From the IMG/VR virus record IMGVR_UViG_3300018080_000221, positions 1 to 54,147 of that record: a stretch of 54,147 nt of DNA, one strand, 5' to 3'. Position numbers and translations under genes: made by a program. The notes below the pieces were generated by a model. That model was not told where the DNA came from, ran no database searches, and saw only the letters and a list, made by a program, of their open reading frames with translations. Position 1 is the stretch's first letter, and each line of letters opens with the position of its first letter. Shown piece by piece: positions 1,505-52,099 of this stretch. Source of the stretch: a virus.

Positions 1505-1789
1505 ATGGTTCTGGAGGGCATTGCCGTGGATATGGAACGCCGTGCAAGACGAATTGAAGCACTTTATATCGTCGGGGTTGGTGGCCTTATTAGCGTGGGG
1601 CTTGATGCGGTGGATCACCCACTTGCCCTCATATTTAAGGGCATACCCATCACGTGGGAGAATCTTGCCCGTAAAGCGGGGAGACCGCTACATCTACCTA
1701 TGGTGCTTATCAGTGGTACCATTTTCATCGTACTTGGTGCATTATGTTGTGGATTTCTACTTGACGAAATGAGTGGCACACACGCCTAG
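1505..1789 (+). CDS. Small two-helix membrane protein
   Basis: A 94-residue ORF with two hydrophobic segments (about residues 21-38 and 67-88) and a basic patch between. The start ATG lies 7 bases after the upstream stop and has no Shine-Dalgarno, suggesting coupled translation. A different frame at 1494-1772 (GTG start overlapping the previous stop) also encodes a hydrophobic peptide. I prefer this frame because about 39% of its codons begin with G against about 24% in the other, as expected for coding DNA. Its last codons run into palindrome copy A. It could be a holin or virion membrane protein; function unknown. Confidence 0.5.
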   Translation: MVLEGIAVDMERRARRIEALYIVGVGGLISVGLDAVDHPLALIFKGIPITWENLARKAGRPLHLPMVLISGTIFIVLGALCCGFLLDEMSGTHA

Positions 1790-1803
1790 TTTCGGGGCTG
1801 TGC
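1776..1803 (+). repeat. Dispersed palindrome copy A
   Basis: GCACAC ... GGGGCTGTGC, 28 bp. It sits between the small membrane gene and the protease gene, directly upstream of the protease Shine-Dalgarno (AGGAGG, 1805-1810). Confidence 0.75.
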
Positions 1804-1817
1804 AAGGAGGTTTGATT

Positions 1818-3034: not shown

Positions 3035-3045
3035 GAGGTATAGCC

Positions 3046-4488: not shown

Positions 4489-4504
4489 TCTTTAGCTTTT
4501 AGTG

Positions 4505-5849: not shown

Positions 5850-7600
5850 GCGATAACTACCAGGTAGAGTTAGTAAGTGGTACATACAACCGACTGCAGC
5901 TACTACAAAGGATGATAGCTTCTGCCAGGAAGTCTGTGGGCAGGCTGCGGTATAGGTTTATCCTGGTAGACGGCGGCTCGACTGACGGGACCATCGACTG
6001 GTGCAAGGAGCAAGACGACATCCTGCTTATCGAGCAGGGGGAGTTGCTAGGAGCTATCAAAGCCTACAATGCTGGATGCGAGGCGGCGACTGGTGAGTAC
6101 GTCGTCATCCTTAACGACGACATTACAGTTAATGGCAACTCTATCGTCCAAGGCTATAACTTCATGGAGAGTCATCCTGAGTGCGGTCAAGGAGCGTTTG
6201 GGCATGTCTACCAACGTAGGGGAGATAAGGCCAAGAGCGAAGTCCGTTGGCAAGGGGCCTATGGCTATCTCTATGGCCAGTGCAGCATTATCCGTAGGGA
6301 GCTTGGAGAGCTGGTCGGATGGTGGGGTACTGGTTACCGTACCTACGCCGGAGATACCCAGCTCAGCTTGAGGCTATGGGAATGCGGCTGGTCCGTACTG
6401 AGGGTAGTAGAGGCCAGCGTTACCGACTATGAGTTTGAGGATGAGCTCAGAGTCGTTAACGGTAAGGGGGCCAGTAACGTTCATCCAGACACCATTGCAT
6501 TCCAGCAGAGGTGGAAGGGCAGACTGCCTGCCGTGCGCGACTGGATACCTGCTGGCTATAACCGCATCTGGGGCAAGGCTGCTAGGGGAACTCTGAAGAC
6601 TGTACGGTTCAAGATTACCCCTCCTAACTGGCCTGAGAGGACTGCCTTGATTAACGTCTTCAAGAAGTACGGAGAGGCTACCCAGATCAACCAGTCAGAT
6701 TATAGCAGGAAGAACGGGCACGCAGCACTGCAGAAGTACGCCATAGATTGGGTACATAGGAACAAGCCAGACCTTATCTTGCTTCAGTCCCATGTCCCCA
6801 AGAACGCCGTGCTTCCAGAGACCGCACGCACAATGAAGCGCCTGTGCCCTGACGCGGTGATCGTGAATTGGAATGGGGACTGCCACTTCCCACTGAGCGA
6901 CTTTGACATCTCTATAGCCAGGTCGGTGGACTTGCACCTTCATATCTCGCCTACCCTGTATCCAGAGTACTTGGAGCGCGGGGTAGGTAACGTAGGATAC
7001 TGGCCCATTGGAGTGGAGACTGAGTTCTTTGAGGCTGAGAGGGCTACCAATTGGACTTCTCAAGGCCCTGGGCCAGACGTGATCTTCCTTGGCGCCCTCT
7101 ACGGTATTGGAGTCTTTCCAGAGGCCAAGACCAGACGAGAGGCAGTACATCGGTTATGGACGGATGACGAGGTGAGTCTGAAGGTCTATGGCCCAGGCTG
7201 GCACCAGATAGGGATAAACACGCATCCTACCTGGGATCGCTTCTTGGAGAATGCTGAGGCATATGCTAACTCCGCTATGGCCTTGAGCATCAGTCAGGCA
7301 TCCCATCTCTGGGGATATACTTCCGACAGGCTCTACAACATTTGCGCAAGTGGCTGTCCCGCCCTGGTCCAGAAGTTCGAGGGTATGGAGGAGCATGGAT
7401 TCGTGGATGGCGAGACCTGCATAGCCTGGGATGGCCTAAACAATATGATGGATCAGGTTAGGTACTACCTGAAGCCAGAGAACGTAGATCATCGAGAAAG
7501 AATAGCCATAGCAGGACGTCAGTTGATCAAGGATAAGCATACCTGGGACCATCGAGTGCCTGTATTGTTTGATATGATAGGGGGATTGCAATGCCGTTAG
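5846..7600 (+). CDS. Two-domain glycosyltransferase (GT2 plus GT-B C-terminal domain)
   Basis: A 584-residue fusion. Residues ~1-230 form a GT-A family 2 domain: VDGGSTDG nucleotide-binding segment and a DxD-type LNDDI around residue 90. Residues ~250-584 look like a GT-B enzyme of the Glyco_trans_1_2/CgeB kind, with a C-terminal ASGCPALVQKFEGMEEHGF segment that is typical of the sugar-nucleotide site. It could add two sugars in sequence. The start overlaps the methyltransferase stop (ATGA) and the end overlaps the next glycosyltransferase gene by 10 bases, so the cassette is a tight operon. Confidence 0.8.
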   Translation: MSDNYQVELVSGTYNRLQLLQRMIASARKSVGRLRYRFILVDGGSTDGTIDWCKEQDDILLIEQGELLGAIKAYNAGCEAATGEYVVILNDDITVNGNSIVQGYNFMESHPECGQGAFGHVYQRRGDKAKSEVRWQGAYGYLYGQCSIIRRELGELVGWWGTGYRTYAGDTQLSLRLWECGWSVLRVVEASVTDYEFEDELRVVNGKGASNVHPDTIAFQQRWKGRLPAVRDWIPAGYNRIWGKAARGTLKTVRFKITPPNWPERTALINVFKKYGEATQINQSDYSRKNGHAALQKYAIDWVHRNKPDLILLQSHVPKNAVLPETARTMKRLCPDAVIVNWNGDCHFPLSDFDISIARSVDLHLHISPTLYPEYLERGVGNVGYWPIGVETEFFEAERATNWTSQGPGPDVIFLGALYGIGVFPEAKTRREAVHRLWTDDEVSLKVYGPGWHQIGINTHPTWDRFLENAEAYANSAMALSISQASHLWGYTSDRLYNICASGCPALVQKFEGMEEHGFVDGETCIAWDGLNNMMDQVRYYLKPENVDHRERIAIAGRQLIKDKHTWDHRVPVLFDMIGGLQCR

Positions 7601-8601: not shown

Positions 8602-9350
8602 TTATATGGCTGGCATCGTATCCAAGGTCGGGGAATACCTTGACTAGGATAGCAGTAAACGCTTTGTATGGAATTAAGACCCACTCCATGCATGCCGATG
8701 CCCCCTTGAATAGGCAGGACTACAGAGTAGCCTACGGATTTGTCATCAACGACAAGCTCAAGAATAAGTTGTATAGGCTGCGTGATAGGCCGCAGAGGTA
8801 CTTCATCAAGACTCATGCTGTCCTGGATAAGCCTAACTATATACAAGACGAGGACAAGGCCATCTATATAGTCAGGGATGGCCGGGATGCATTGGTATCT
8901 CGTGCCCACTTCTTTGCTGACAAGTATGCTGAGTATAAGGGCCATTTCATTGGTACCCTGAAGAGGTTGGTGATAGAGGATATCAAGTACAGACCTTGGA
9001 GCGAGTCGGTAATGACCTGGGCGGCTAGGCCAAATACTGCCTACGTCAGGTATGAGGAGATGGTGGTAGACCCATTTGGAGCCTTGGGAGCTGCCATGGC
9101 CAAGCTTGGGGTCAGTATCCCAAAAAAGAGTAGGGAAATGCCCAAGTTCACCACACTACACGACTCGGACAGTACCTTCTTCCGCAGGGGGGCAGCGAGG
9201 GCCTGGGTAGACGAGATGCCGGAGGAGCTGATCCAGGAGTTCTGGACTAGGAATTGGAGGGGGATGGTCTACTATGGATATGGAGATGGTGGTCAAGTTT
9301 CTGCTAGCGACATTAGCGATCTACAAGCTGAGTATGGTGCTTGTCCATGA
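8598..9350 (+). CDS. Sulfotransferase (cytosolic Sulfotransfer_1-like)
   Basis: A 250-residue protein with an exact PAPS-binding set: 5'-phosphosulfate loop SYPRSGNTLTR (residues 7-17) and 3'-phosphate motif IVRDGRDALVS (Arg93-x7-Ser101). KTHAVL around residue 61 resembles the conserved catalytic-region KTH segment. It belongs to a different sulfotransferase subfamily from the one at 4577, so the cassette encodes two distinct sulfation steps. It starts in an ATGA overlap with the glycosyltransferase gene, and its 3' end overlaps the DUF1360-like gene by 77 bases. Confidence 0.88.
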   Translation: MIIWLASYPRSGNTLTRIAVNALYGIKTHSMHADAPLNRQDYRVAYGFVINDKLKNKLYRLRDRPQRYFIKTHAVLDKPNYIQDEDKAIYIVRDGRDALVSRAHFFADKYAEYKGHFIGTLKRLVIEDIKYRPWSESVMTWAARPNTAYVRYEEMVVDPFGALGAAMAKLGVSIPKKSREMPKFTTLHDSDSTFFRRGAARAWVDEMPEELIQEFWTRNWRGMVYYGYGDGGQVSASDISDLQAEYGACP

Positions 9351-9606
9351 GAAATGGGGCGACCCGATCAGGGATAGGCTGGGCAAGGTCTGGATGACTA
9401 ACAAAGTCGGGATTCCAGTGACCTGGCTAGGCCGAACCCTCAGCTGCTTCTTCTGTACATCGTTCTTGGCGGCAGTCGTGGTCTTTACCGTACTCTTTTA
9501 CAAGACACCTGCACACGCGCTTTTAGGGGCGTGTGCTGCTTCTGGCGGAGTCGAACTACTATACATCTGGTCAGGCTCTCATAGGCTGTTCAGGGTCAAA
9601 GACTAG
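9274..9606 (+). CDS. DUF1360-like membrane protein
   Basis: A 110-residue protein with an N-terminal hydrophobic helix (LLATLAIYKLSMVLV), a middle segment TLSCFFCTSFLAAVVVF with the paired-Cys membrane pattern of DUF1360 phage and sporulation proteins, and a third hydrophobic stretch near residue 85. The start ATG is inside the upstream sulfotransferase gene; other Met codons at 9280 and 9286 are possible. Palindrome copy E lies inside the gene and encodes part of PAHALLGACAAS. Function is unknown. Confidence 0.65.
   Translation: MDMEMVVKFLLATLAIYKLSMVLVHEKWGDPIRDRLGKVWMTNKVGIPVTWLGRTLSCFFCTSFLAAVVVFTVLFYKTPAHALLGACAASGGVELLYIWSGSHRLFRVKD
9511..9536 (+). repeat. Dispersed palindrome copy E
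   Basis: GCACACGC ... GCGTGTGC, 26 bp, with the best symmetry in the family (8-bp perfect arms). It is inside the DUF1360-like gene. Confidence 0.8.
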
Positions 9607-15265: not shown

Positions 15266-15608
15266 ACTAGGCGTGGTGTTCGCTATCAATGGTAAAGGAG
15301 TCACCTCACCCGATGAGGAGGTCTGGGCCCATAATGTACTAGGAGAGGACTTGGATGGGCTGCAGAAGAGGAGTGCCTATGCAAAGCTCGAATGGCGTCG
15401 GGTGGTAGGTGAATCTTGCGATTTGGATTGGTTCGATTACGATAATACTACTCTGACCTCGCTGACCACTAGACTCCCTGGAGAAATAGACCAGTACGAG
15501 ATATATAACGATGCCATCTGCCAATCAGTGGTAAAGCGTAACCGGAGGGGAGTAGCCAGCGAGATAGTGGCTGTCTTCCTAGTCAACTTGGGGGATACAG
15601 GGACATGA
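15258..15608 (+). CDS. Small tail protein after the tape measure
   Basis: A 116-residue protein beginning at GTG and overlapping the tape measure gene by 8 bases and the next gene by ATGA (15605). It has mixed alpha/beta character with an acidic centre (CDLDWFDYDNTT). It occupies the position of a distal tail or minor tail protein, but no family motif is recognised. Confidence 0.6.
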   Translation: MARLGVVFAINGKGVTSPDEEVWAHNVLGEDLDGLQKRSAYAKLEWRRVVGESCDLDWFDYDNTTLTSLTTRLPGEIDQYEIYNDAICQSVVKRNRRGVASEIVAVFLVNLGDTGT

Positions 15609-17191
15609 CTTCACCTTTTCCTGCAGGGCTAGTAGCCGCATTGAAAGGCTATGCACACGCCGGTAAACTTCGGGGTGTGCAGGGGCCTGCGATTACCCCT
15701 GCCTTTTATTGCTGTATATCTGGTAATACTGTAGGGGTAGCTAAAGACCCAGTACCAGTACCCATCCTAGACGTTCAGGTAGTCTGCCCCAACGAGGCAG
15801 TTACCATGGACTACTCCAACAGCTGGTCTCCTACAGATACCATAGCTAGTTGGGAAGTTACTTGGGGTGACGGTCAGACCTCTAATGGACTTTGGCCTGG
15901 AGCAGGGTCAGTGGCCCATCCACTAGGTGGTTATGTGGCTGCAGGCAAGTACGACGTGGTTCTGACCGTCACTGATACTCTGGGAGCTGAGGGCACTGGC
16001 AGGCTTCAGGTAATAGTCCTCAGCTGCGCCGATGAAGATGCCATGGACGAAGGCGACCCTGCCGGCTACCCAGCCTACAGGTGGGCTAACTGGGAGGAGG
16101 TCAAGGGAATAGCTACTAGCCAGCAGTACGTATGGAGTAACGACGACGTACTTGGGGCTGGAAGTTGGGCCAAGGTAGAGAGTAGCCAGCTGAGCACCTC
16201 TACCCTTACGGACGCCAAGATCACCAGGGAGCCCAGTGGACTAGAGAGGCTATTCGTTTCCAGGTACGACGGTATCTATACCTATGAAGTGCCTCCAAGT
16301 GGCGGTACTTGGGTAAAGCGGCAAGACATCACCGACCTCATTACCGCTGCGGGGTATAACCCTGCTAACTATAACGACGTACAGATCGTAGACTCCCTGG
16401 CCTTTGTTGAGAATAGACCTGGCTGGGGGTATGCATTCTTCCATGCCTACAAGAATGGCCCACTCTTCAAAGGAGCAGACGCTATCTGGGGAGTGGCTAC
16501 TACCTTCAGTGGATGGAGGAGTATAGCCTATTCAGTAGTGATAGACGACATGGGAGTGGTAGCCAATAAGCTGCAGAGGTTTACCTCCGGCCAGTTAGCA
16601 GTGGTCCAAGAGAGCAATGGAGCTACTGTATATGCCGCGTCTGGTAGGTTAGATGAAGATGCAGGAGTAGATGAGAGTACCTTACACGTGTCTGGTAACT
16701 ATGGCGGCAGCTGGAGTAGGGCCTCGACTATGCCCAACTATGGGGCCAGCGCATTTTGCTCTGTAGGGAGGAAGTGGGCAGGGATAGTCTACTGGTCTAA
16801 CGTTAATGGTACCTATCGGTCTGGGGTCAAGATACATGCCGAGAATGGCCCTATGAGCGTGAGCCCAGAAGATGCCAGGTACATGCTATTGATGACTGGC
16901 CAGAAGGTAATCGAGTTCACGCCCTCCACCATCCGGCAGTTTGGAGGGGCTGGAGCCGACTGGCCCCATTGGCCTGGTAATGATGGCGAGCATTTTATAG
17001 TTACTCATAGGAACGACGACCATACTGCATATAGGATACTTTGGGTGGGAGATGACGGGGTGAACGGGCAAATCTATGCATTGAAAGAGGATGGTACTAT
17101 GACCGATGTAGGAGGAGGGTATACTCCTACCACCTTAGGCGACGCCTTCATGGCTAGGCCAGAGACGGAGGAGTACCTTGCCTACCCTTAA
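15605..17191 (+). CDS. Tail protein with a PKD domain and a propeller-like region
   Basis: A 528-residue protein. Residues ~55-145 form a PKD domain (VTWGDGQTSNG followed by GKYDVVLTVTDTLGAEGT), an Ig-like fold common on phage tails and surface adhesins. The rest has repeated Trp/Gly strand patterns, including an Asp-box-like SGNYGGSW near residue 367, suggesting a beta-propeller. Palindrome copy D lies near the start and encodes YAHAGKLRGVQGP. It is likely part of the tail tip or a side fibre. Confidence 0.6.
   Translation: MTSPFPAGLVAALKGYAHAGKLRGVQGPAITPAFYCCISGNTVGVAKDPVPVPILDVQVVCPNEAVTMDYSNSWSPTDTIASWEVTWGDGQTSNGLWPGAGSVAHPLGGYVAAGKYDVVLTVTDTLGAEGTGRLQVIVLSCADEDAMDEGDPAGYPAYRWANWEEVKGIATSQQYVWSNDDVLGAGSWAKVESSQLSTSTLTDAKITREPSGLERLFVSRYDGIYTYEVPPSGGTWVKRQDITDLITAAGYNPANYNDVQIVDSLAFVENRPGWGYAFFHAYKNGPLFKGADAIWGVATTFSGWRSIAYSVVIDDMGVVANKLQRFTSGQLAVVQESNGATVYAASGRLDEDAGVDESTLHVSGNYGGSWSRASTMPNYGASAFCSVGRKWAGIVYWSNVNGTYRSGVKIHAENGPMSVSPEDARYMLLMTGQKVIEFTPSTIRQFGGAGADWPHWPGNDGEHFIVTHRNDDHTAYRILWVGDDGVNGQIYALKEDGTMTDVGGGYTPTTLGDAFMARPETEEYLAYP
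15653..15680 (+). repeat. Dispersed palindrome copy D
   Basis: GCACACGCC ... TTCGGGGTGTGC, 28 bp, inside codons ~17-26 of the PKD tail protein gene. Confidence 0.8.
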
Positions 17192-20413: not shown

Positions 20414-20466
20414 AATCAAAGGCCCTGCACACCCCCGAAATTAGCGCGTGTGCAGGGCTTCTTGAT
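20414..20466. terminator. Bidirectional terminator-like dyad at the convergence of the two arms
   Basis: A perfect 11-bp stem GCCCTGCACAC (20422-20432) with GTGTGCAGGGC (20448-20458), extended by ATCAA/TTGAT outside, lies exactly between the converging arms. T-rich flanks are short, so termination strength is uncertain. The core is palindrome copy F. Confidence 0.55.
20427..20453 (-). repeat. Dispersed palindrome copy F
   Basis: GCACACCCCC ... GCGTGTGC, 27 bp. It is the only copy extended into a long perfect stem, and the only one in the gap between converging arms. Confidence 0.8.
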
Positions 20467-32745: not shown

Positions 32746-32919
32746 CTAGAACTTCAGATTGGCGCTGCGTTCAGCATCCTTCCGTTGGATGGTCTGGACT
32801 TTGACCTTCAGCATAGCTTTGGATACCGACTCTACAGTCCTGGTCCTGCCTCCTGGTAAGGTGATCTTGGCGCGGTGGACGCCGCGTTTCTCATCATACC
32901 AGTATCTTACACTGCCCAT
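32746..32919 (-). CDS. Small basic protein overlapping folE
   Basis: A 57-residue, Lys/Arg-rich protein (MGSVRYWYDEKRGVHRAKIT, then a TVESVSKAMLKVKVQ helix). The start overlaps the folE stop in ATGATG. AAGGAGG sits 6 bases before the second ATG (32919), which I choose; the first is at 32922. Its strand-turn-strand plus helix plan resembles small DNA-binding arms (AP2/integrase N-terminal style), but this is a weak resemblance. Confidence 0.5.
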   Translation of the reverse strand: MGSVRYWYDEKRGVHRAKITLPGGRTRTVESVSKAMLKVKVQTIQRKDAERSANLKF

Positions 32920-33518
32920 CATTTACCTCCTTCCTTAGCCAGGAACATAAATTCCTGGTATAGATAGGGATTACCAAGGAAGTAACCCCGCTTAACTGAC
33001 GTACCTAGGCTGCCCGTATTCTCGATACCACGGCACTGCATACAGGTATGCCGGCCAATGGCATAGGCTGCCACTGAGGACTGGCCCGTTATCTCTGCAA
33101 TCTCGTCTGCCACCTGATTGAGGAACCTCTCCTGTATCTGCAGACGGTGGGCATACTTATAGCAAACTCTGGCTACCTTGGATGCCCCCAGGTATTTATC
33201 CTTTACCTGATAGCCTACCACGACATCCATCGAGAACGGCAGTAGGTGATGCTCGCACATGGACCAGACGTCATTGACTCTGAGGACTACTAACTGACCC
33301 TGCCCCTTGGCCTCGAAGGTAGTACCTATCTTGCCAGGATCGTACTCAATAAAGGACTTCCAGAATCTAGCTACTCTGTCTGGGGTATCAACCAATCCCT
33401 CACGAGTGGGGTTCTCTCCTATGGCCCTGAGCAGGCGAGTCACCGAGATTCGGATCAAGTCCTCCTGCACACCCCCTGACTCGGCGTGTGCGGCTGCTGT
33501 CGTTTCTTCCTTCATCAT
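32919..33518 (-). CDS. folE: GTP cyclohydrolase I (FolE)
   Basis: A 199-residue protein with the full FolE signature: VWSMCEHHLLPF (zinc ligands Cys88 and His91), GASKVARVCYKYA and GRHTCMQCRGIE (third zinc Cys159). It opens the GTP ring to dihydroneopterin triphosphate, the first step to preQ0. It overlaps queE (ATGATG, 33515). Palindrome copy I lies in the 5' part of the gene, encoding AHAESGGVQED in a non-conserved N-terminal extension. Confidence 0.95.
   Translation of the reverse strand: MMKEETTAAAHAESGGVQEDLIRISVTRLLRAIGENPTREGLVDTPDRVARFWKSFIEYDPGKIGTTFEAKGQGQLVVLRVNDVWSMCEHHLLPFSMDVVVGYQVKDKYLGASKVARVCYKYAHRLQIQERFLNQVADEIAEITGQSSVAAYAIGRHTCMQCRGIENTGSLGTSVKRGYFLGNPYLYQEFMFLAKEGGK
33467..33491 (-). 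repeat. Dispersed palindrome copy I
   Basis: Minus strand GCACACGCC ... AGGGGGTGTGC, 25 bp, in the first 20 codons of folE. Confidence 0.8.
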
Positions 33519-34153
33519 TTCACCCCTATATACTTATGGACTTGGACCGACAGCCGGCAACCGAGTTGAAGGCATGCCTTGAAGGCCAGCTTGGTGGAGT
33601 GCTCCTCCTGGGAGATAGGCTGTAGGCAAACGCGCTGAGGGTCTATGTCGTGTAGGTTCATGAACGCCTTCAGCCTGGCTATAGAGGGCATCCCACCCAC
33701 CAGCCACTTGATCTCGTCTGCCCCCTCAACGACGTTCTTCAGGTAGCTACCCTCAGGGAGCATATGCTTGGGGCTTACCACGATATGGTCGATTAGGTGT
33801 GCCCCTGGGATAGGTAGGCTACCATTGGTCTCCAGATGGATGCATGGAATGGGATGGCTCAACTGGATGAGCGCCTCTAGCAGGGCCTCCAGGGGTTGTA
33901 GGCACGGCTCGCCTCCGGTCAGTACCAGGAGGTCGTTGGCATGGGCAGTCTGCTGGATAGCCTTAACCAGTCGATTCAGGGTATAGGTCGTACCCCCTTC
34001 AAGGCCGATGGACCCCTTGGTATCGCAGAAGCCGCAGTCGAGATTGCACCCCTGGAACCTGACGAAGGTAGCAGGCCAGCCAGAGAAGCGTCCTTCTCCC
34101 TGGATAGACCGGAAGATAGAGTGTACTAGGTAGGTTGGCTTAGACTTCGACAC
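33515..34153 (-). CDS. queE: 7-carboxy-7-deazaguanine synthase (QueE), radical SAM
   Basis: A 212-residue protein with FRSIQGEGRFSG at the N-terminus and the radical-SAM cluster motif CNLDCGFC (Cys36, Cys40, Cys43), then VLTGGEP (about residue 79) for SAM binding. These are QueE hallmarks. It makes the 7-deazaguanine ring from carboxytetrahydropterin. It starts at GTG and overlaps queD by 14 bases and folE by 4. Confidence 0.93.
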   Translation of the reverse strand: MSKSKPTYLVHSIFRSIQGEGRFSGWPATFVRFQGCNLDCGFCDTKGSIGLEGGTTYTLNRLVKAIQQTAHANDLLVLTGGEPCLQPLEALLEALIQLSHPIPCIHLETNGSLPIPGAHLIDHIVVSPKHMLPEGSYLKNVVEGADEIKWLVGGMPSIARLKAFMNLHDIDPQRVCLQPISQEEHSTKLAFKACLQLGCRLSVQVHKYIGVK

Positions 34154-34679
34154 TGCATCCTCCTAAGCCCTCCCATAGAGTGACGTTTACTATCTCTACT
34201 CTGGGCAGCTCCTCTATCTTCTGCTGAAGGTACAGAGCAATATTCTCTGCAGTTGGCAGTGGAATGAAGTCATTGAGCCAGGAGTGGTCCAAGTCGTCGA
34301 TGATCTCCTTGATATCGCCAAAGTCCACTACCACGCCGTCGGCCTCGTTGACATGCCCCAACATCTCTACCTTGACTCGGTAAGAATGCCCATGAGGATT
34401 ACTACACTTACCTGGATGGCACGGCAAGTAGTGTCCGGCCTCGAAGGTACGCTCCACCGTCAGCCATGCATGGCGCTTCGGCCCTGAGGGGTTGGTACGG
34501 CAACGGACTCCCCTAACGGCCTCACCCCTGAGGTGAGGCTCTCCTGGGATGTCCACATCTGCCATCGCTTCTCGGCACTCCGCCTCTGCGGCCAGGAGTT
34601 CTTGTAAGTCTGTTATCTGCTTGAGAGCCTCAATCTTGCTCACTTGGTTACCCTTGCCTACATCTGCGTCGTGCATCAT
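34140..34679 (-). CDS. queD: 6-carboxytetrahydropterin synthase (QueD)
   Basis: A 179-residue protein. The QueD core starts near residue 72: FEAGHYLPCHPGKCSNPHGH gives zinc His83, His96 and His98 with catalytic Cys92, followed by VVDFGDIK, LDHSWLND and PTAENIA. The core matches a normal ~120-residue QueD. The first ~65 residues are an additional helical region not usual in the family, which may be real or reflect a later start. It overlaps the helicase gene at the ATGATG start. Confidence 0.93.
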   Translation of the reverse strand: MMHDADVGKGNQVSKIEALKQITDLQELLAAEAECREAMADVDIPGEPHLRGEAVRGVRCRTNPSGPKRHAWLTVERTFEAGHYLPCHPGKCSNPHGHSYRVKVEMLGHVNEADGVVVDFGDIKEIIDDLDHSWLNDFIPLPTAENIALYLQQKIEELPRVEIVNVTLWEGLGGCSVEV

Positions 34680-36997: not shown

Positions 36998-37333
36998 TCA
37001 CTCCTCCACTGAAGCATAGTCTAGCGGTACACTGAAGTCTGCCTTAGGATCGCTCCTAGTCCAGGAGGTAGGCTCTGCCTTGATCTTGGCCTGCATAGCC
37101 TTATGTAGCCTACGCTGACCGTCCATGTACCTCAGGAGGTCGGCATGCTTGACGTGGGCCACGTCCTCTATCTTATAGGCAGCGAGCTTACCACGATGGA
37201 TGTGGTTATAGACCTTCTGGACAGGTACTCCCAAGATACGAGCCACTACTTGTATGGGGTATATGTCGGCTGCTGGTATAGCCAGTAGCCAACGTTTCTT
37301 GTCCTTAGACAACCCTGCCATCCTGCTGGGCAT
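36998..37333 (-). CDS. Helix-turn-helix DNA-binding protein (excisionase/MerR-like)
   Basis: A 111-residue protein. IYPIQVVARILGVPVQKVYNHIHRGKL followed by AYKIEDVAHVKHADLLRYM (listed as positions ~25-73) is the winged helix-turn-helix layout of the HTH_17 group: helix, turn VPVQK, recognition helix and a beta wing. It is the first gene after promoter P2, a usual place for an autoregulator. It could bind the palindrome family or the CAGCCTG promoter motif, which is untested inference. Confidence 0.7.
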   Translation of the reverse strand: MPSRMAGLSKDKKRWLLAIPAADIYPIQVVARILGVPVQKVYNHIHRGKLAAYKIEDVAHVKHADLLRYMDGQRRLHKAMQAKIKAEPTSWTRSDPKADFSVPLDYASVEE

Positions 37334-37380
37334 AAGACTGTTCTCCTTTAACGCGAGATTAGAACGCCTCCGAGACTTCT

Positions 37381-37410
37381 AGTATACTCTAACAGGCTGG
37401 GTTTAGTCAA
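37381..37410 (-). promoter_or_regulatory. Promoter P2 (leftward)
   Basis: TTGACT (37405-37410) and TATACT (37381-37386) with an 18-base spacer that contains CAGCCTG. It is upstream of the helix-turn-helix gene, so it may drive the resolvase, helicase and preQ0 genes. Confidence 0.75.
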
Positions 37411-37739
37411 GCCTTGGCAGACGACCTAAGAAAGGTATCCACCTCACTTATGACGTAGAACCTGTCCAGCTCGCCACTGTCGTCTAGGAAGTAGTCTGCA
37501 GCTGGCTGTCCGGCCTTCTGGATGTCGGCTAGGAAAGCCTCTGCTACCTCCTCACCATACTTGAGGACTAGGAATGCCTTGAGCTCTCGGTGGTATGGGT
37601 CCATATCCTTGGACGACTGGACTGGTAGGAAGTACGTCTCGTCGGCTGACTGGATATAGAAGAAAACGGAATCACCCACCCTGCACAGCCCCGATCCTTG
37701 CGTGTGCAGTCTCTTTACTCCATCGGGTAACTTGGGCAT
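37407..37739 (-). CDS. Unknown acidic protein
   Basis: A 110-residue protein with a GAAGGAG ribosome site. The N-terminal residues RLHTQGSGLCRV are encoded by palindrome copy J. The rest is alpha/beta and acidic (DDSGELDRFYVISEVD). No family recognised. The 3' end overlaps promoter P2. Confidence 0.6.
   Translation of the reverse strand: MPKLPDGVKRLHTQGSGLCRVGDSVFFYIQSADETYFLPVQSSKDMDPYHRELKAFLVLKYGEEVAEAFLADIQKAGQPAADYFLDDSGELDRFYVISEVDTFLRSSAKA
37683..37707 (-). repeat. Dispersed palindrome copy J
   Basis: Minus strand GCACACGC ... TCGGGGCTGTGC, 25 bp, at codons ~11-19 of the gene at 37407. Confidence 0.8.
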
Positions 37740-41034: not shown

Positions 41035-41564
41035 TCTCTGCCCTCCTCTTGGAGGTGCAGCCAGCAAACCAAATCGCCGTCCTCGCACAGCCGCCAGCCT
41101 AGGGGTGTGTGGGTATCGAAGGTAAATATAGACCGTCCACAGACGGAGCAGGTATGCTGTACTGGGTTCCTGTCCTCTTTATGCAGGGCAAAGAGTAATG
41201 CGCTATTGGTAACTAGCCCCTCTGGCTGTACTGCGGTAGGTCCATGGTTGATAGCCTCAGAAGGGGCCATCGTTAGGGAGGTAGACTGCCTCAGGGACCA
41301 GAGCACTGGTGACGGGGCAGGCGTATGGGTAGCAACGAATGTCCGGCCCTGGTAGGAGATGACGATATGCCTATAGTTCTCCTCGTGGATGGCATGGCTG
41401 GTCAGGTACGGTTCGAGTCGGTTGACTGCCTCTATAATCTGGCGGGTAGTCCCGTTATCATATGCATGGACGAACCGCCTGAAGGCACGGTTAAAGTCAG
41501 AGCGATATGGAACCTGCTGCCCATCTCTGGTTTGGTCAGCGGGTCTAGGTGCGTCTGAGTTCAT
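41031..41564 (-). CDS. Unknown protein with a C-terminal zinc knuckle
   Basis: A 177-residue protein. CSVCGRSIF (about 137-145) with a later LCEDGDLVCW supplies four Cys for a zinc site; the segment between, THTPLGWRLCE, is encoded by palindrome copy M. The first ~60 residues are helical. Function unknown. Confidence 0.55.
   Translation of the reverse strand: MNSDAPRPADQTRDGQQVPYRSDFNRAFRRFVHAYDNGTTRQIIEAVNRLEPYLTSHAIHEENYRHIVISYQGRTFVATHTPAPSPVLWSLRQSTSLTMAPSEAINHGPTAVQPEGLVTNSALLFALHKEDRNPVQHTCSVCGRSIFTFDTHTPLGWRLCEDGDLVCWLHLQEEGRE
41085..41110 (-). repeat. Dispersed palindrome copy M (divergent)
   Basis: Minus strand CACACACCCC ... GCGGCTGTGC, 26 bp. Less conserved, but in the same reading-frame phase and with the same right arm as copies B, J and K. 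Confidence 0.55.
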
Positions 41565-41911
41565 AGCCTTTCCTCCATAATCCTCTCGATAAGGTCCACT
41601 GGCTGGCCTAGCTGCTCAGCGACTGCCTGGGGCTTCAGCAGCCTGTCGCTAACCAGGTAGTCCACCAGCGGGACCAGTTTATTGATAAGCTCCTCTTGGG
41701 GCATAGAGGCGTACTTGGCGCTACCCCTGGGTTGCCGACGTGGTATCTCGTTGCGGTCTATGATGGCGTAGAGAGTGTTAGGGCAGACGCCCGTTAGCTC
41801 CATGATCTGGCTAACGGGCATCTCCTGCTGGTAGTAATCGCAGACCATCTGCTCCCTCACCTCGTCGATGCGATTGGGGCGGCCTGAGTTGGTGGAGCCA
41901 GTATTAGTCAT
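41561..41911 (-). CDS. Helix-turn-helix DNA-binding protein
   Basis: A 116-residue protein. DEVREQMVCDYYQQEMPVSQ followed by IMELTGVCPNTLYAIIDRNE (positions ~15-55) is a homeodomain-like (Hin/resolvase-type) helix-turn-helix: PVSQIMELTGVCPNTLYAII is the helix-turn-recognition helix. There is no catalytic domain, so it is a regulator candidate. ATG 41911 overlaps the upstream gene by 8 bases. Confidence 0.65.
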   Translation of the reverse strand: MTNTGSTNSGRPNRIDEVREQMVCDYYQQEMPVSQIMELTGVCPNTLYAIIDRNEIPRRQPRGSAKYASMPQEELINKLVPLVDYLVSDRLLKPQAVAEQLGQPVDLIERIMEERL

Positions 41912-43112
41912 TCGGGTACTCCCATACGTGGCGGATAGCACGCTCGCCAGAGGGGGCATCCTGCCAGGCTTCGAAGTCCTCTGATAACCAATTGGTGAAG
42001 GTACCACGCTCTGGGTGGACGATGGTGACCTGGTCATGCAGGTACAGCCATGCACTGACGCCGTTGTACTCAGCCTCGATAGCCGCGATATACTCCTCAA
42101 CCTTAGAGGGCATCTTCTCGTAGGTAGTGCGCAGGTGGAGCAGTGCCTCGCAGCGGACGTCGATATATTCCTTGATGTACCACTGGAGGTCCTCTAGTAC
42201 CTGCGCTTCGTAGGCAGCGATCTGCTCGGCAGAGAGTGGGCGGAGGTCGTTAGGCCAGGCGGTAAAGTTCTCTGCCCAGCAAGACGCCCCGTCCAGGTGC
42301 TCAGCCTCCTCGATGTACTCGTCTACTAGGTCAGGGTTATCTAGGAACGCGTCTGACGAGTAGATAGTACGGTAAGCCAGGTCTCTGGCACGGAGCTGGT
42401 CGTGGGTGAGTTCTACATGGATACGCCCAAAGATGATGGCCTCGATAAGGTCGGGTAAGGACTCTATACAGATACCCAGGTCGTCGTTATGGAAGCAGGC
42501 GCATGCCCCTCGGTGCTGGATATGCAATCGGCTACCATCGAGGTCGTATACCATAGCGCAGGGCATCTCTACCTCGTCAGGCGACTGCTCAGGGTAGTGG
42601 GTGGTAATCGGTGCCCACACCGGCTGGTAGTTAGGATCGAAGTCGACAGGGTTAAGGGTCAGGCTGTCCAAGATCGTTGGCGGGATACCATACTCGGACG
42701 TATAGTCAGGAGCAGTCGGGTCGTTAGGGCCAGGACTAAAGCCTGTGGCAGGGTCGAACCCCCAGGGAACCCCTTCACGAAGGGAGGCACAGCCCCAAGA
42801 ATCAGGGGTGTGCAGGGGAGGGGGTAAGTCCTCGTTGCCTGCCCCCAGTGTAGAGGAGGATGGCTGGACACGGTCCTCTTCAGGGACGCTGGGCAGCTCG
42901 CCTGGTAGATAGGCCAGGAGGGAGTCGATAAGTTGGGTAGCGATACGGTTCCTGGCTGCGCAGAGGCGCAAGTCGTCTTTGTCGGTCAGGTCGGGGTCGC
43001 CGTATGATAGGTTGGTGGCCTCCTCTGCCTGCTTAACAACGTCCGGGGAGGCTGCTAGGGCGGATACGGCGGCTTCCTTGCTAGTGGTTAGGAGATACGT
43101 TAGGAGGTGCAT
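41904..43112 (-). CDS. Unknown acidic protein
   Basis: A 402-residue protein with a good ribosome site (AAAGGAAC). The N-terminal part is helical; residues ~85-170 are Pro/Asp-rich and disordered-looking; the C-terminal part is helical and acidic. HRGACACFHNDDLGIC (about 200) holds clustered Cys/His. Palindrome copy K encodes LHTPDSWGCASL. It is the first gene after promoter P1 and the AT-rich region. No family recognised. Confidence 0.6.
   Translation of the reverse strand: MHLLTYLLTTSKEAAVSALAASPDVVKQAEEATNLSYGDPDLTDKDDLRLCAARNRIATQLIDSLLAYLPGELPSVPEEDRVQPSSSTLGAGNEDLPPPLHTPDSWGCASLREGVPWGFDPATGFSPGPNDPTAPDYTSEYGIPPTILDSLTLNPVDFDPNYQPVWAPITTHYPEQSPDEVEMPCAMVYDLDGSRLHIQHRGACACFHNDDLGICIESLPDLIEAIIFGRIHVELTHDQLRARDLAYRTIYSSDAFLDNPDLVDEYIEEAEHLDGASCWAENFTAWPNDLRPLSAEQIAAYEAQVLEDLQWYIKEYIDVRCEALLHLRTTYEKMPSKVEEYIAAIEAEYNGVSAWLYLHDQVTIVHPERGTFTNWLSEDFEAWQDAPSGERAIRHVWEYPND
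42787..42813 (-). repeat. Dispersed palindrome copy K
   Basis: Minus strand GCACACCCC ... TTGGGGCTGTGC, 27 bp, inside the gene at 41904. Confidence 0.75.
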
Positions 43113-43218
43113 AGCAGTTCCTTTCTAGTAGTCTGGTGCCTAAGCTGGATTAGGCGTTTATGGGTAGTCAGCTAGGGAGCTAGCCTGTTAAGGTCTCGCT
43201 CCGGTTTTTCTCCCTTCT

Positions 43219-43248
43219 AGTTTACTATAACAGGCTGGCTTTAGTAAA
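43219..43248 (-). promoter_or_regulatory. Promoter P1 (leftward)
   Basis: TTTACT (43243-43248), 18-base spacer with CAGCCTG, then TAAACT (43219-43224); TATAGT at 43224-43229 is an alternative -10. It lies 107 bases upstream of the gene at 41904, with two small hairpins in the leader. Confidence 0.65.
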
Positions 43249-43917
43249 GTCCCCCCAGTAGGGCCAAACGCCCTGGCAAGTAGGAAAGGGGGAGAGGACG
43301 GCTGTTATGGTAGACGGCTGATAAGGTAGTAGATGGTCATACTTTTAGTTTTTAGAAACTAAAACAGGTCGTTACTTTTTAGTTACTAAAAACTAAGTCA
43401 TGGCCTGAAATGGGGTATAATCCATAAAGATAATGCTATAAAAGCGGTCTGCGAGTAGTTTATTTTTATAGTTTACTTTATAGTTTATTTGAATGTAGAT
43501 TGATTTGTTTAGGGTTAGTTTAGGTAGTATTGCCCTCCTTATCTATATAAATAATAAATAATTATAAAATAATTATTATTATATTTTTTATAGCTACTAT
43601 TAGATGAACCAAAAGGAGAAGAAATTAAAATTCAATTAAATTAAAATATATATAGAGCTATACCGACCCCCCTTGGAGCGTTATTTTGCTATGGTTTATA
43701 GTTTATAGCGATAAGTACGATGGTTTAGATAGGTCGTTTGATATAGGTCGGTGCGTAAGGTAGAGTATAAACTATAAACTATATAAATAAAAGAACCCCC
43801 TACCCTATAGATAGGGCAGGGGGAGCAGTAGAGCTGATATAGCCATCGGTGATCGCCAGCCTGACTGGTTAGGCAACGACCCCTAGCTGGTCGGGCCAGC
43901 GGTCGGGCGGGCGGTGG
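43249..43917. other. AT-rich non-coding region, replication-origin candidate
   Basis: No gene is seen for about 670 bases. Features: palindrome TTTTAGTTT/AAACTAAAA (43343-43364), palindrome TTTTTAGT-T-ACTAAAAA (43376-43392), and repeated TATAGTTTAT-type units in both directions (43464-43482, 43690-43706, 43766-43783). An almost pure A/T tract runs through 43541-43600. It is by far the most AT-rich part of the genome, suiting easy melting and initiator binding. Confidence 0.5.
43784..43823 (-). terminator. Rho-independent terminator (leftward)
   Basis: On the minus strand CCCCCT-G-CCCTA, TCTA loop, TAGGG-T-AGGGGG, then TTCTTTTATTT. It follows the gene at 43918 and shields the AT-rich region from its transcription. 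Confidence 0.8.
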
Positions 43918-44502: not shown

Positions 44503-44551
44503 GGTATTACCTCCTATAGGTGTGTATGGCTTATGGTAGGCTAATTCCTAC

Positions 44552-44745
44552 CTAGCTGGTCCCTAAGTCATAGGCTTATCACTGCGGGCTGCCGGACTGG
44601 GTAGCAGGCAGAGAGCGGCGTGGCCTAGGGACCAGCTAGCTATTAACTAGCCTGGTATGGTAACAGGTGGTGCACGTTCTTGTTAAGGTCGTCTTTAGGA
44701 CTAGGCGATAGGAAGAAACTAAGTTGCGGTTATTCCCTATCGCCT
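44552..44745 (-). ncRNA. Structured 5' leader of the SSB-like gene
   Basis: The ~240-base leader after promoter P4 contains a 10-bp perfect hairpin at its 5' end (AGGCGATAGG 44703-44712 with CCTATCGCCT 44736-44745). It also contains a 14-bp perfect long-range stem (CTAGCTGGTCCCTA 44552-44565 with TAGGGACCAGCTAG 44626-44639) around a smaller inner hairpin. A 6-bp hairpin (GGTAGG/CCTACC) follows near the start codon. It may be an attenuator, riboswitch-like control or stable small RNA. Confidence 0.5.
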
Positions 44746-44747
44746 TT

Positions 44748-44777
44748 ATTATACTATAACAGTAGGGGGTAAGTAAA
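44748..44777 (-). promoter_or_regulatory. Promoter P4 (leftward)
   Basis: TTTACT (44772-44777), 18-base spacer, consensus TATAAT (44748-44753). The spacer has CTACTGTTATAG rather than CAGCCTG. It is followed at once by a 10-bp hairpin at the predicted transcript start. Confidence 0.75.
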
Positions 44778-44796
44778 GTCTAGATAGTAGTACCAA

Positions 44797-45039: not shown

Positions 45040-45067
45040 GGGTGGGTGGGTGGGTGGGTGGGTGGGT
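45040..45067 (+). repeat. Tandem GGGT repeat (7 units), G-quadruplex-prone
   Basis: Seven consecutive GGGT units on the plus strand lie in the short gap between two leftward genes. The mRNA strand is ACCC-rich, so any quadruplex would form in the non-transcript DNA strand. Confidence 0.85.
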
Positions 45068-45069
45068 GG

Positions 45070-45820: not shown

Positions 45821-45846
45821 GCACACTCCTGTAATCGGGGCTGTGC
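45821..45846 (+). repeat. Dispersed palindrome copy L
   Basis: GCACACTCC ... TCGGGGCTGTGC, 26 bp, filling the whole gap between two leftward genes; its left arm carries the Shine-Dalgarno of the gene at 45465. Confidence 0.8.
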
Positions 45847-46244: not shown

Positions 46245-46301
46245 ATTACTCTCCTTTACTGGTAGGGGCAGGGTGCCCCGCGGCCTTATAGCTCTACCTT
46301 A

Positions 46302-46331
46302 ATTATACTACGACAGGCTGCTCTTAGTAAA
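46302..46331 (-). promoter_or_regulatory. Promoter P3 (leftward)
   Basis: TTTACT (46326-46331), 18-base spacer with CAGCCTG, consensus TATAAT (46302-46307). It drives the genes at 45846 and beyond. Confidence 0.8.
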
Positions 46332-46581
46332 GTCTCCGCAGGCTGCCCAATTGCGGTGGTAGGCAGGGGAGGGAGCGAGTCGCCTATATAGCAGGGTAGG
46401 GGGCAGGGTAGGGGGATACCCCTGGGGCAGAGTAGGGGGGTCAGGGTAGGGGGGTGAGCCTGATGGGGTCACGGCGTTGAGGCAGGGTGAGTGGCAGCTC
46501 GTGAGCTGAAAAAAAATCATACAGCTCGCTCCGGTAAAGTATTCTGTTATAGAGTAGGGGAGGGACTATGCCCTCCCCAGA
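46332..46581. other. Non-coding stretch with G-rich repeats and a hairpin
   Basis: Four imperfect CAGGGTAGGGGG units occur at 46392-46403, 46404-46415, 46428-46440 and 46442-46454. An A8 tract lies near 46509-46516. A perfect 8-bp hairpin GGGGAGGG/CCCTCCCC (46557-46578) directly follows the gene at 46582 in its direction of transcription and may end that transcript. Confidence 0.6.
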
Positions 46582-48248: not shown

Positions 48249-48431
48249 ATGCTGAACTTAAACGTACTTGACCAACCAGGGGAGAGGGTAACCCTAATAA
48301 CCAAGACAAAGATAGTCATTGCGACGGTTACGGAGCCAGACACGGCCAACGACCTGGAGTTACACACTCCAGGTTCGGGGCTGTGCATCGGCTTGAGAAT
48401 TGAGCAGGTGAGGGATCGTGAGCTGGAATGA
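48249..48431 (+). CDS. CsrA-like small protein (tentative)
   Basis: A 60-residue protein. The beginning (MLNLNVLDQPGERVTLIT, then KIVIATVTE) and end (GLCIGLRIEQVRDRELE) follow the order of CsrA: ML-L-R-x-GE at the N-terminus and V-R-x-EL near the C-terminus. The middle is altered by palindrome copy B, which encodes ELHTPGSGLC. Only a weak G-rich ribosome site. If real, it could control translation of the structural arm. Confidence 0.4.
   Translation: MLNLNVLDQPGERVTLITKTKIVIATVTEPDTANDLELHTPGSGLCIGLRIEQVRDRELE
48362..48386 (+). repeat. Dispersed palindrome copy B
   Basis: ACACACTCC ... TTCGGGGCTGTGC, 25 bp, in the CsrA-like gene, 32 bases before the small terminase start. Confidence 0.75.
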
Positions 48432-49089: not shown

Positions 49090-50563
49090 GGAGAGAGAAG
49101 CCCTCATCAAGCTGCTGGAGCAGGACCCAGTATGGTGGATGGAGAGGAACTTCTGGATACCAGACAGGCGCGACCCTATGACGGGGGAGGAGCTGGGGCC
49201 AGGGCCGATCATACTCCATCCTATCCAGAAGCGCATCCTGAGAGCTGTACTTATCAAGGGCGATGGGGGCAGATTTCCCTACTCGACCATGCTCTATAGT
49301 ACCATCAAGAAGTCGGGTAAGACCAGGATAGGAGCGGGAGTAGCTGCATGGTTTGCGGCCACCCAGGGCAGGTATAACGAGGTCTATTGCTTGGCTAACG
49401 ATGGTAAGCAGAGTTCTGACCGTATCCTATCAGCCATCAAGCAGTGCGTGACGTTGAATACTAATATGGATTGGAACGTCACCAAGACCAAGATCACGTT
49501 GCCTAATGGCACGTACATAGAGGCCATCCCTTGCGACCCCAAAGGCTCTGCAGGGGCTAACCCAGGATTGACTGTCTGGTCTGAGATGTGGGGATATGCC
49601 CACCAGCATAAGGAGCGTTTGTGGACTGAGATGACTATTCCGCCTACCAGATTTGGTAAGGCGATGCGGTGGGTAGAGTCCTATGCAGGGTACAAGGATG
49701 AGTCGGCAGTACTCTACTCCCTGTACGAGCAGGGCACGGAGCATGGTAGAAGGCATCCAGAGTTTAGCGGTCCAGACGACCCTCCATGCTACACCAACGA
49801 GGCCGCTAACATGTTCTGCTATTGGGACGATGGAGATGCGGCACGAAGGATGCCCTGGCAGACAGACGACTATTATGCCCAGGAACGGAGTCAGCTAGTT
49901 GCTAGCGAGTTTGACCGTATCCATCGCAACTTTTGGATAGACTCTGTGGATAAGGCCATCGACTTGGCTTGGTGGGATGCGTGTAAGGAGGACGTGCCAG
50001 CACTGGACCATCGCACTCCGGTAGTGATGGCAGTAGACGCCTCAGTGAGCCACGACTCAACTGCGGCCTGCTTGGTCAGTAGGCATCCAGACCCGCAGAG
50101 GAGGAACAAGGAGACTATGATCCGTAAGGTCAGGGCATGGTATCCTTCGCCTGGAGAGAAGATAGACCTGACAACAACGTTGGAAGCGTGTATATTGGAC
50201 TGGTCCGAGAGGTATAATATAGTCTGCTTGGTCTATGATAAGTACCAACTCCATAAGATGATGATGGATATCAGGAAGGAAGGTATCGTCAGGGTAAGGG
50301 AGTTTGGGCAGCAGGTAGACCGTTCAGTAGCAGACCGGCAGATATTGGACCAGATACTCACCAGGATGATAGCCCATGACGGTAACCAGGAACTGAGGGA
50401 GCACGTAGATGCCGCAGCTACCAAGATCACTGGAGACAATAAGATGCGTTTTGTGAAGGCGTCTGATCAGAAGGACGCCCAAGGGCGCACGGCCAAGCCT
50501 ATAGACCTATTAGTTTGCGCTTCCATGGGTAACCATGAGTGCCTGAGGTTGAACCTAGCATGA
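49079..50563 (+). CDS. terL: Terminase large subunit
   Basis: A 494-residue protein. ATPase: STIKKSGKTRIG (Walker A, residues 74-85) and LTVWSE (Walker B with catalytic Glu, about 163-168). Nuclease: VVMAVDASVSHDSTAA (first Asp, about 317), LVYDKYQL (second Asp, about 385) and a C-terminal acidic segment. It pumps DNA into the prohead. It ends in ATGA overlap with the portal gene. Confidence 0.93.
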   Translation: MRTEEREALIKLLEQDPVWWMERNFWIPDRRDPMTGEELGPGPIILHPIQKRILRAVLIKGDGGRFPYSTMLYSTIKKSGKTRIGAGVAAWFAATQGRYNEVYCLANDGKQSSDRILSAIKQCVTLNTNMDWNVTKTKITLPNGTYIEAIPCDPKGSAGANPGLTVWSEMWGYAHQHKERLWTEMTIPPTRFGKAMRWVESYAGYKDESAVLYSLYEQGTEHGRRHPEFSGPDDPPCYTNEAANMFCYWDDGDAARRMPWQTDDYYAQERSQLVASEFDRIHRNFWIDSVDKAIDLAWWDACKEDVPALDHRTPVVMAVDASVSHDSTAACLVSRHPDPQRRNKETMIRKVRAWYPSPGEKIDLTTTLEACILDWSERYNIVCLVYDKYQLHKMMMDIRKEGIVRVREFGQQVDRSVADRQILDQILTRMIAHDGNQELREHVDAAATKITGDNKMRFVKASDQKDAQGRTAKPIDLLVCASMGNHECLRLNLA

Positions 50564-52089
50564 AGACTGTACAAACGCCAGAAGCTAGAGGGACTACTCT
50601 CATAGATACAGGAGCCGAGATAGAGCAGGCTTCTGGGGTCTTCAGCTGGAACGTCACCGGTGAGGGCGTGGATCAGGTTCCAGCCTACGGCTCCAAGACC
50701 AGGGATGAGTACCTGGTTAGGCACCTGACCAAGTATGGTAATGACCTCCTGGCCGGAGCGGTATCCAACCTTCAGGCTAAGATAGTTACCACTCACTGGT
50801 TCGTGGAGGGGCCTTTGGCCTTGGCTGAGGCTGCCAGGAATATGCTACTCTACCAGAGCGACTTCGGGGCGGGGTGGGAGTCTATGGCTGCCCCGTGGAT
50901 ACATGGTTACCTCTGCAGGGATGGGGGCGGCATCTTGGAGAATGGCAGGGCCAGTCGTAGTGACCACGATGGGCCGTCCCTGGGATTCGCCCATATAGAC
51001 GAGTCCAAGATGACCCGTACTGGCGACCCAGAGTATCCATTTAAGTATCAGGCCAAGAATGGCCATATTAAGATGCACCGGAGCCAGGTATCCCCGATGG
51101 TAGATATGAGGGATGGTCGGGACTCCATGAAGGGCGTAGGGTTCTGCGCCCTCAGCCGTACCCTTGCAACCTCACATATCCTGATGGATGTGGTTACCTA
51201 TAAGCGTGAGATGCTGAGCGACCTTCCCCCTGCAGGTATCCTCTTTATCAATAACATGACCGAGCCGCAGTGGAAAGACCTCAACCAGAAGTACGATGGC
51301 CGGCAGCAGAACTCTGGCAATACGGTCTGGCGGGATATTATGGTGGCCCTGGGTATTGACCCGGCCTACCCCGTCAGTGCTGAGCTATTCCAGTTGCGGC
51401 GTCTGTGGGAGTCCTTTGACGAGCGTACCCAGATGGAGATGGCTATTTATTCCTTTGCCCTGGGCTTTAGAGTAGACCCCAGAGAGTATTGGCCAGTCTC
51501 GTCAGGTAGCTTGGGCACTGCAACTGAGGCAGAGATACAGCACAGGAAAGCCAGGGCCAAGGGTGAAGGCGCGATCTTTTCGGCTATAGAGCGCATCTTC
51601 AACGGGCCGTTCGGTATCAGTCCTGTCCTCAAGTTCCGCTTCGACTTCAGGGACGACGACGAGGACCAGCAGGCGGCAGAGATTGCCAAGCTGAAGATAG
51701 ACAACATCCGTAAGCTCTGGGAGGCAAGCCCCAACGCCGTATACTTCCAGTTGGAGCAGATGCGGGCAGAGCAAGCCAAGCAGAGGGCCCAGGAGTTCGC
51801 TGACCAGCAAGACCAGGACGACGAGCAAGACCCAGACGAGGATACTAAGCAACTGAACTTCGACGAGAGCCAAGCCAGCGACATAGTTGGTATTGGCGGT
51901 ATGATCTCTACTGAGGAGGCCAGAAACCTGCTAGTGAGCTGGAATATCGTGGAGCCGCACGTCTTGGGGCAGCAGATCGACGATGGCCGTGTCTACGATG
52001 TTAAGGGGCTGATTAAAGCCTATGGGCCTTGGGTGAGGGTGTATGATGATGGTCGTTATCTTCGCCTGAGTTCACGCACACTTGGTTAG
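50560..52089 (+). CDS. Portal protein
   Basis: A 509-residue protein next to the large terminase. GFCALSRTLATSHILMDVVTYKREMLSDLP (positions ~199-228) and the following helical region are of the portal clip/stem type, and QLRRLWESFDERTQMEMAIYS matches portal wing sequence. The acidic DQQDQDDEQDPDED stretch near 430 is a flexible C-terminal part. The C-terminal codons overlap palindrome copy C. Confidence 0.85.
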   Translation: MKTVQTPEARGTTLIDTGAEIEQASGVFSWNVTGEGVDQVPAYGSKTRDEYLVRHLTKYGNDLLAGAVSNLQAKIVTTHWFVEGPLALAEAARNMLLYQSDFGAGWESMAAPWIHGYLCRDGGGILENGRASRSDHDGPSLGFAHIDESKMTRTGDPEYPFKYQAKNGHIKMHRSQVSPMVDMRDGRDSMKGVGFCALSRTLATSHILMDVVTYKREMLSDLPPAGILFINNMTEPQWKDLNQKYDGRQQNSGNTVWRDIMVALGIDPAYPVSAELFQLRRLWESFDERTQMEMAIYSFALGFRVDPREYWPVSSGSLGTATEAEIQHRKARAKGEGAIFSAIERIFNGPFGISPVLKFRFDFRDDDEDQQAAEIAKLKIDNIRKLWEASPNAVYFQLEQMRAEQAKQRAQEFADQQDQDDEQDPDEDTKQLNFDESQASDIVGIGGMISTEEARNLLVSWNIVEPHVLGQQIDDGRVYDVKGLIKAYGPWVRVYDDGRYLRLSSRTLG

Positions 52090-52099
52090 GGGGCTGTGC
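52076..52099 (+). repeat. Dispersed palindrome copy C
   Basis: GCACACTT ... AGGGGGCTGTGC, 24 bp, across the portal stop codon. Its right arm provides the AGGGGG ribosome site of the next gene (TTG 52101). Confidence 0.75.

Follow-up and report, generated by a model that had tools for sequence, protein, structure and literature searches.

Repressor operators can be dispersed over a whole phage genome, as with the conserved inverted repeats of phiC31 and the c1 operators of P1. The nearest published look-alike of the element described here is the 17-bp palindromic repeat of Cluster O mycobacteriophages (TGTTCGG-N3-CCGAACA), with 34 copies in Corndog, about one third of them intragenic and most of them kept between relatives, and with a function that is unknown (PMC4351075). 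Cluster A stoperators are asymmetric sites without inverted arms that are bound by an immunity repressor (PMC4351075). In RSF1010, RepB' recognizes the short stem-loops ssiA and ssiB and primes 3' of them (PMC4434180, PMC4234260), and phage NrS-1 has a primase-polymerase that initiates at a specific template motif (PMC8718748). Here we describe a GCACAC...GTGTGC palindrome present in thirteen copies (A to M) in the IMG/VR virus record IMGVR_UViG_3300018080_000221, whose whole stretch of 54,147 nucleotides was analyzed and is called the window below. That these copies are real, conserved, polar and evenly spaced sites is close to certain. A role in replication, absent from the initial annotation of this DNA, fits their orientation and spacing best, and we give a probability of about 35% to the reading in which they are single-strand initiation (ssi)-type sites read by a RepB'-like primase-helicase of the phage.

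The phage genome in the window is circular and measures 54,024 bp, as bases 1–123 recur identically at 54025–54147. The phage is previously undescribed, with no close isolated relative in the phage collection searched, and no confirmed relative of its capsid protein was found among 84,980 prokaryote genomes in a search for the host. Comparisons were made with a relative represented by two IMG/VR contigs, G001 (IMGVR_UViG_3300024265_000157) and G006 (IMGVR_UViG_3300028610_002108), whose overlap is 99.97% identical. Joined and turned, they give a sequence of 38,974 bp (Rr) that is colinear with the window from 21.0 kb to the end of the circle at 54.0 kb and on to 6.0 kb, with a nucleotide identity of about 70%, and that was compared with it by gene-wise alignment.

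The thirteen copies reported by the initial annotation were all found in place. Their length of 24–28 bp, their variable center and their recurrence every 2–8 kb around the circle were likewise borne out, the actual gaps being 1.7–7.7 kb. The copies, and one weaker site, are the following.

Copy A, 1776–1803, plus strand: intergenic, between the stop codon of 1494–1772 and the Shine–Dalgarno sequence and GTG of the next gene; not at this place in Rr.
Copy B, 9511–9536, plus strand: close to the 3' end of gene 9274–9606; outside Rr coverage.
Copy C, 15653–15680, plus strand: 48 nt into gene 15605–17191; outside Rr coverage.
Copy D, 20427–20453, minus strand: in a convergent intergenic region; kept, Rr 1763 (minus).
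Copy E, 23815–23840, plus strand: antisense in the PolA-type polymerase gene; kept, Rr 5176 (plus), 16.0 bits.
Copy F, 27887–27912, minus strand: within the primase-helicase gene; kept, Rr 9226 (minus), length differing by one codon.
Copy G, 33467–33491, minus strand: at the 5' end of a folE-like gene; missing there in Rr, which has a copy about 1 kb off (13984, minus).
Copy H, 37683–37707, minus strand: at the 5' end of gene 37407–37739; kept with both arms, Rr 19118 (minus).
Copy I, 41085–41110, minus strand: lowest-scoring of the thirteen (25.3 bits); at most a weak counterpart in Rr.
Copy J, 42787–42813, minus strand: to the left of the AT-rich region; its sole counterpart, Rr 23267, is weak (11.5 bits).
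Copy K, 45821–45846, plus strand: between two minus-strand genes, antisense to transcription; kept, Rr 28064 (plus).
Copy L, 48362–48386, plus strand: upstream of the small terminase gene; kept, Rr 30458 (plus).
Copy M, 52076–52099, plus strand: spanning the stop codon of the gene that follows the large terminase gene (by synteny, the portal gene); kept, Rr 34227 (plus).
Possible weak copy, 6824–6847, plus strand: 14.0 bits, in the widest gap (A–B); may be chance.

Read in one orientation, the copies follow the consensus GCACAC-N-CC, then four to ten variable bases, then CGGGG-S-TGTGC, which places A, B, C, E, K, L and M on the plus strand and D, F, G, H, I and J on the minus strand. As well as being asymmetric, the element has a conserved 3' flank, up to position +11, which is a purine in 22 of 22 sites (1.0 bit; 99% of the null at 0.44). 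Positions +3 to +5 are G-rich, and GTG occurs at no fixed place in the flank. The asymmetric right arm shows that E and K run against their genes, and not G and L as had been annotated, since the latter run with theirs. Nor do the eight sense in-gene copies share one codon phase, as had also been proposed, because all three are in use (first codon position for B, C and G, second for I and M, third for F, H and J).

A motif-free search for gapped inverted 5-mers returned GCACA...TGTGC as by far the most over-represented pair in the window (12 against 0.21 expected), and GCACA also ranked first in Rr (5 against 0.20). With a matrix built from both arms of the thirteen copies and order-3 Markov shuffles as background, the copies scored 25.3–33.5 bits and the next best site 14.1, while shuffled window genomes gave 0.1 site at 14 bits or more. 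A chance origin of the copies is ruled out by these two analyses. Applied to Rr, the window matrix found 10 sites of at least 14 bits, compared with 0.4 in shuffles. Thus the scan against shuffled sequence and the arm conservation in a relative, on which the initial annotation had made the element depend, both speak for it. No match at the gathering score was obtained with Rfam 15 in the window, no T run of the kind found in Rho-independent terminators follows the elements on their 3' side, and none of the terminator-like sites reported in the scanned part is the full palindrome.

Seven of the Rr sites match the places and orientation of D, E, F, H, K, L and M. Their right pentamer, TGTGC, is identical in all seven and their left pentamer differs at 5 of 35 positions. 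As these sites have been kept while the surrounding DNA changed by about 30%, they must be real functional sites. Other places turn over: Rr has no copies at A and G, has copies of its own at 13984 and 38442, and offers only weak counterparts of I and J; its site at 12060 is without the G run and may be chance. The many copies, the variable center and the non-orthologous places of some copies would suit a mobile palindromic element of the repetitive extragenic palindrome or miniature inverted-repeat transposable element kind, spread by insertion, as the initial annotation had envisaged. This explanation is nevertheless extremely improbable, as even spacing and orientation are unexpected under insertion, and insertion is ruled out at Rr 38442. 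That copy is embedded in a methyltransferase gene whose alignment with its window counterpart has no gaps, THRGAVQGV standing in place of VDRYDVLRT. Copy E involves no length change relative to Rr and copy F a single codon. Together these alignments indicate that the copies are not inserted and arise by substitution under selection.

The distant relatives L051, G008, G047, G048 and L085–L088 have zero to two isolated matches each, none above 19.1 bits, and no convincing set. A pattern scan of other phages in IMG/VR returned mostly single matches, although G002 (L005/L006, IMGVR_UViG_3300031548_000006) and G003 (L008, IMGVR_UViG_3300027711_000002) hold more. These two genomes of 56–58 kb and 64–65% GC are related to each other and, except for the PolA-type polymerase, unrelated to the window phage. 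They carry 8 and 6 GCACAC...GTGTGC palindromes with variable centers, at least four of them in matching sequence contexts, a resemblance that is possibly convergent.

Around the circle the window gaps average 4.16 kb with a coefficient of variation of 0.37, more even than random (P = 1.7e-4). In Rr, the nine best-supported sites give a coefficient of 0.40 (P = 0.009), and 0.19 when the weak site at 23267 is included; seven sites being shared, the spacing in the two genomes is not independent. Even spacing has been retained though places turn over, with extra copies at 13984 and 38442 in Rr and none there at G and A. Copies K (45.8 kb), L, M, A, B and C (15.7 kb) form a plus run through zero, and copies J (42.8 kb), I, H, G, F and D (20.4 kb) a minus run, with E as an exception. 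The flip points, at about 44.3 and 18.0 kb, split the circle into 27.7 and 26.3 kb, and this polarity rule fits 12 of the 13 copies (P = 0.0017, for one fixed rule formulated after viewing the data). The J–K flip interval (42.8–45.8 kb) includes the lowest-GC stretch of the genome, and that of Rr (33%, 23426–23725) falls within the same interval. K and E, the copies opposed to transcription, have the same orientation in Rr. A site that is oriented, evenly spaced and selected even inside genes probably serves the whole genome and not one gene, so that a role at genome scale, and not in gene control, is likely.

Such a role could be played by a polar motif for a host machine, of the kind of Chi in recombination or KOPS (FtsK orienting polar sequences) in translocation, that the phage keeps evenly spaced. 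The G-rich strand of the element follows the presumed leading strand, and the spacing is even and has survived turnover, all of which agrees with this idea. However, Chi and KOPS are short and non-palindromic, unlike the element, and a motif scan of the 84,980 prokaryote genomes gave 19 single matches and no genome with many, that is, no host using the motif was seen. We regard this explanation as unlikely.

RNA hairpins in phage transcripts, acting in processing, stability or translation control, are another candidate, and mRNA processing had been among the roles first proposed. All 13 window copies can pair 4–8 outer bases, and 8 of the 13 are no more than 80 nt away from a gene boundary (3.1 expected, P = 0.004), where the constraint imposed by coding tends to be weaker. 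Against hairpins of this sort, copies F and J lie deep within genes, the antisense orientation of K and E has been kept in Rr, Rfam gave no match, and an arm-swap test revealed no co-variation between the arms. The hairpin role in RNA is accordingly disfavored and appears quite improbable.

The candidate origin and the candidate readers considered below are as follows.

Lowest-GC stretch and candidate replication origin, 43351–43650, no strand: 23.7% GC, where orientation flips between J (minus) and K (plus).
Primase-helicase gene, 27342–29801, minus strand: RepB'-like primase region by sequence and model matches; candidate reader.
Small HTH_17 protein, 36998–37333, minus strand: Pfam HTH_17 above cut-off; alternative candidate reader.
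Protein with a C-terminal helix-turn-helix (HTH), 41561–42100, minus strand: alternative candidate reader.

In the reading that we favor, the copies would be polar recognition sites used in copying the phage DNA. When the strand that carries a site is exposed at the fork, its inverted arms would fold into a short hairpin, and the primase-helicase would recognize hairpin and 3' flank and lay a primer 3' of the hairpin. Sites at intervals of about 4 kb that face away from an origin near 43.4–43.7 kb would start the lagging strand. The first continuous strands would be primed from J and K, located on opposite strands to either side of the AT-rich stretch, like ssiA and ssiB in RSF1010. With the geometry of RepB', the copies of the right half would prime the lagging strand of the fork that moves right, and priming from J and K would converge across the AT-rich stretch. 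Sequence-conserved arms at a varying distance (22–29 bp across the window and Rr) are natural for a loop. The further proposition, that a double-stranded DNA phage sets its lagging-strand starts with primase-specific hairpin sites, about one in every 4 kb, which face away from a single origin and whose even spacing is maintained by selection also within genes, is somewhat more doubtful.

Among the replication genes of the phage are those for a PolA-type polymerase, a single-strand-binding-like protein, a Sak4-like ATPase, an exonuclease, a SNF2-type helicase and the primase-helicase. The primase region of the latter, residues 1–320 at 28842–29801, keeps the motifs WVDLD, SGHGYHLYW and R.PG..N, and resembles RepB' of RSF1010 by four weak, concordant routes. 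It matches PHROG primase families, and its matches to Pfam RepB_primase and RepB_primase_C lie below cut-off. In tblastn, plasmid proteins named for a DNA-primase RepB domain were recovered with E-values of 9e-9 and 5e-7. The sole significant Foldseek match was 3h20 (E-value 6.7e-4), and as the model used is poor (predicted local distance difference test, pLDDT, of 54), this match is only supporting.

Several observations weigh against the ssi reading. Transcription, which flips at about 48.3 and 20.5 kb, predicts the direction of 10 of 12 copies (D, between convergent genes, being excluded) and is therefore a close competitor to replication polarity. Copy K tells the two rules apart, and in the window and in Rr alike it agrees with the AT-rich stretch. 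GC skew changes direction near 40.5 and 20.5 kb and not at 43.5 kb; on that basis I and J would be exceptions as well, and neither rule is cleanly supported. Hairpins formed by a copy's own arms gain no stability over arm-swapped ones (P = 0.85 in the window, 0.56 for all), pairing is weak in several Rr copies, which fold poorly, and the oriented strand has no depletion of TGTG. The distant relatives G047 and G048 share the primase-helicase (32% identity) yet are without the element, and no other clear dispersed palindrome was found in them. RSF1010 has one ssi per strand beside oriV, whereas the window phage has 13 over 54 kb. Finally, the conservation evidence comes from a single relative species.

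Some of these observations agree better with duplex sites for a phage DNA-binding protein, either of the two HTH proteins, that would loop, condense or silence the genome in the manner of stoperators, an explanation that is almost as probable as the ssi reading. Both proteins are kept in the element-bearing Rr and were not found in the element-free relatives, and thus track the element. Arms conserved without co-variation indicate recognition by sequence, most copies follow transcription, and dispersed palindromes are already known in phage genomes (PMC4351075). Conversely, the distance between the arms differs among copies by most of a helical turn, which speaks against binding of duplex DNA by a rigid dimer, and conservation of the 3' flank is unexpected for a simple two-fold site. 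Moreover, K and E keep their orientation against transcription, none of the copies overlaps with the sigma-70-like promoter repeats that recur in the genome, and no integrase, ParA or ParB was recognized among the genes read. The repressor and condensation roles of the initial annotation remain candidates.

The surroundings of the candidate origin have further features. The region 43345–43800 is very AT-rich and contains several inverted repeats, among them 20-mers at 43345 and 43377 that are 95% complementary and AAACTATAAACTATA arms, and is itself a candidate replication origin. At 44538–44653, 33-nt arms with 82% complementarity and a 50-nt loop make a large potential hairpin between J and K. 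Short GGGT tandem repeats occupy 45040–45069, and Rr has tandem repeats of GGTTAGGT/GGTT in the same region, at 24200–24270 and 26440–26470, all of them intergenic. The promoter repeats mentioned above, 36–39 bp long, stand upstream of minus-strand genes at 37376–37411, 43214–43249, 44743–44781 and 46297–46335; they contain TTtACT...TATAAT/TATACT on the minus strand and are likely a shared sigma-70-type promoter.

Two properties of the genome as a whole were also recorded. TGTGT/ACACA is the most depleted 5-mer of the window (0.07 of expectation). CACA stands at 0.30 in the window and is low in Rr (0.44), not in the distant relatives G008 and L051. Avoidance of half-sites elsewhere was considered as an argument and rejected, as the CACA/TGTG depletion is genome-wide, unspecific to the oriented strand, and follows from the depletion of CAC and ACA. 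CG is low in the window (0.61) and CCCGGG is absent. In addition, the translations inspected at 25686–26417 and 32919–34679 include QueC-, FolE-, QueE- and QueD-like proteins, a 7-deazaguanine synthesis set, and the phage DNA is possibly modified.

Compared with the systems described above, the element shares with the Cluster O repeats a palindrome dispersed across a tailed-phage genome. The Cluster O repeats have invariant arms, a fixed 3-bp spacer and no meaningful orientation, whereas the window element has a variable spacer, is asymmetric and oriented, and is unrelated in sequence. With Cluster A stoperators it has in common that its sites are numerous and dispersed; stoperators lie mostly in the direction of transcription, as do 10 of 12 copies of the element, E and K being antisense in both genomes. 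It differs by its two conserved inverted arms, and no repressor or integrase was recognized in the window phage. NrS-1 provides a phage primase-polymerase with a specific template motif, a linear 8-base motif or GTG and not a palindrome (PMC8718748). The likeness to ssiA and ssiB of RSF1010, drawn by description, consists of a short inverted repeat with a loop, of a 3' flank, needed in ssi sites (PMC4434180, PMC4234260) and conserved in the copies, of opposite orientations on either side of the origin, a candidate one in the window phage, and of a putative RepB'-like primase in the window genome. To dispersed palindromes of the Corndog type, whose function is unknown, the element thus adds a polarity, a flip at the likely origin and a plausible reader protein, so that a single enzyme and some short oligonucleotides would suffice to put the question to a test. 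Should the primase indeed read the site, lagging-strand starts would be fixed by sequence at kilobase spacing, in contrast with the frequent short-motif priming of well-studied replisomes.

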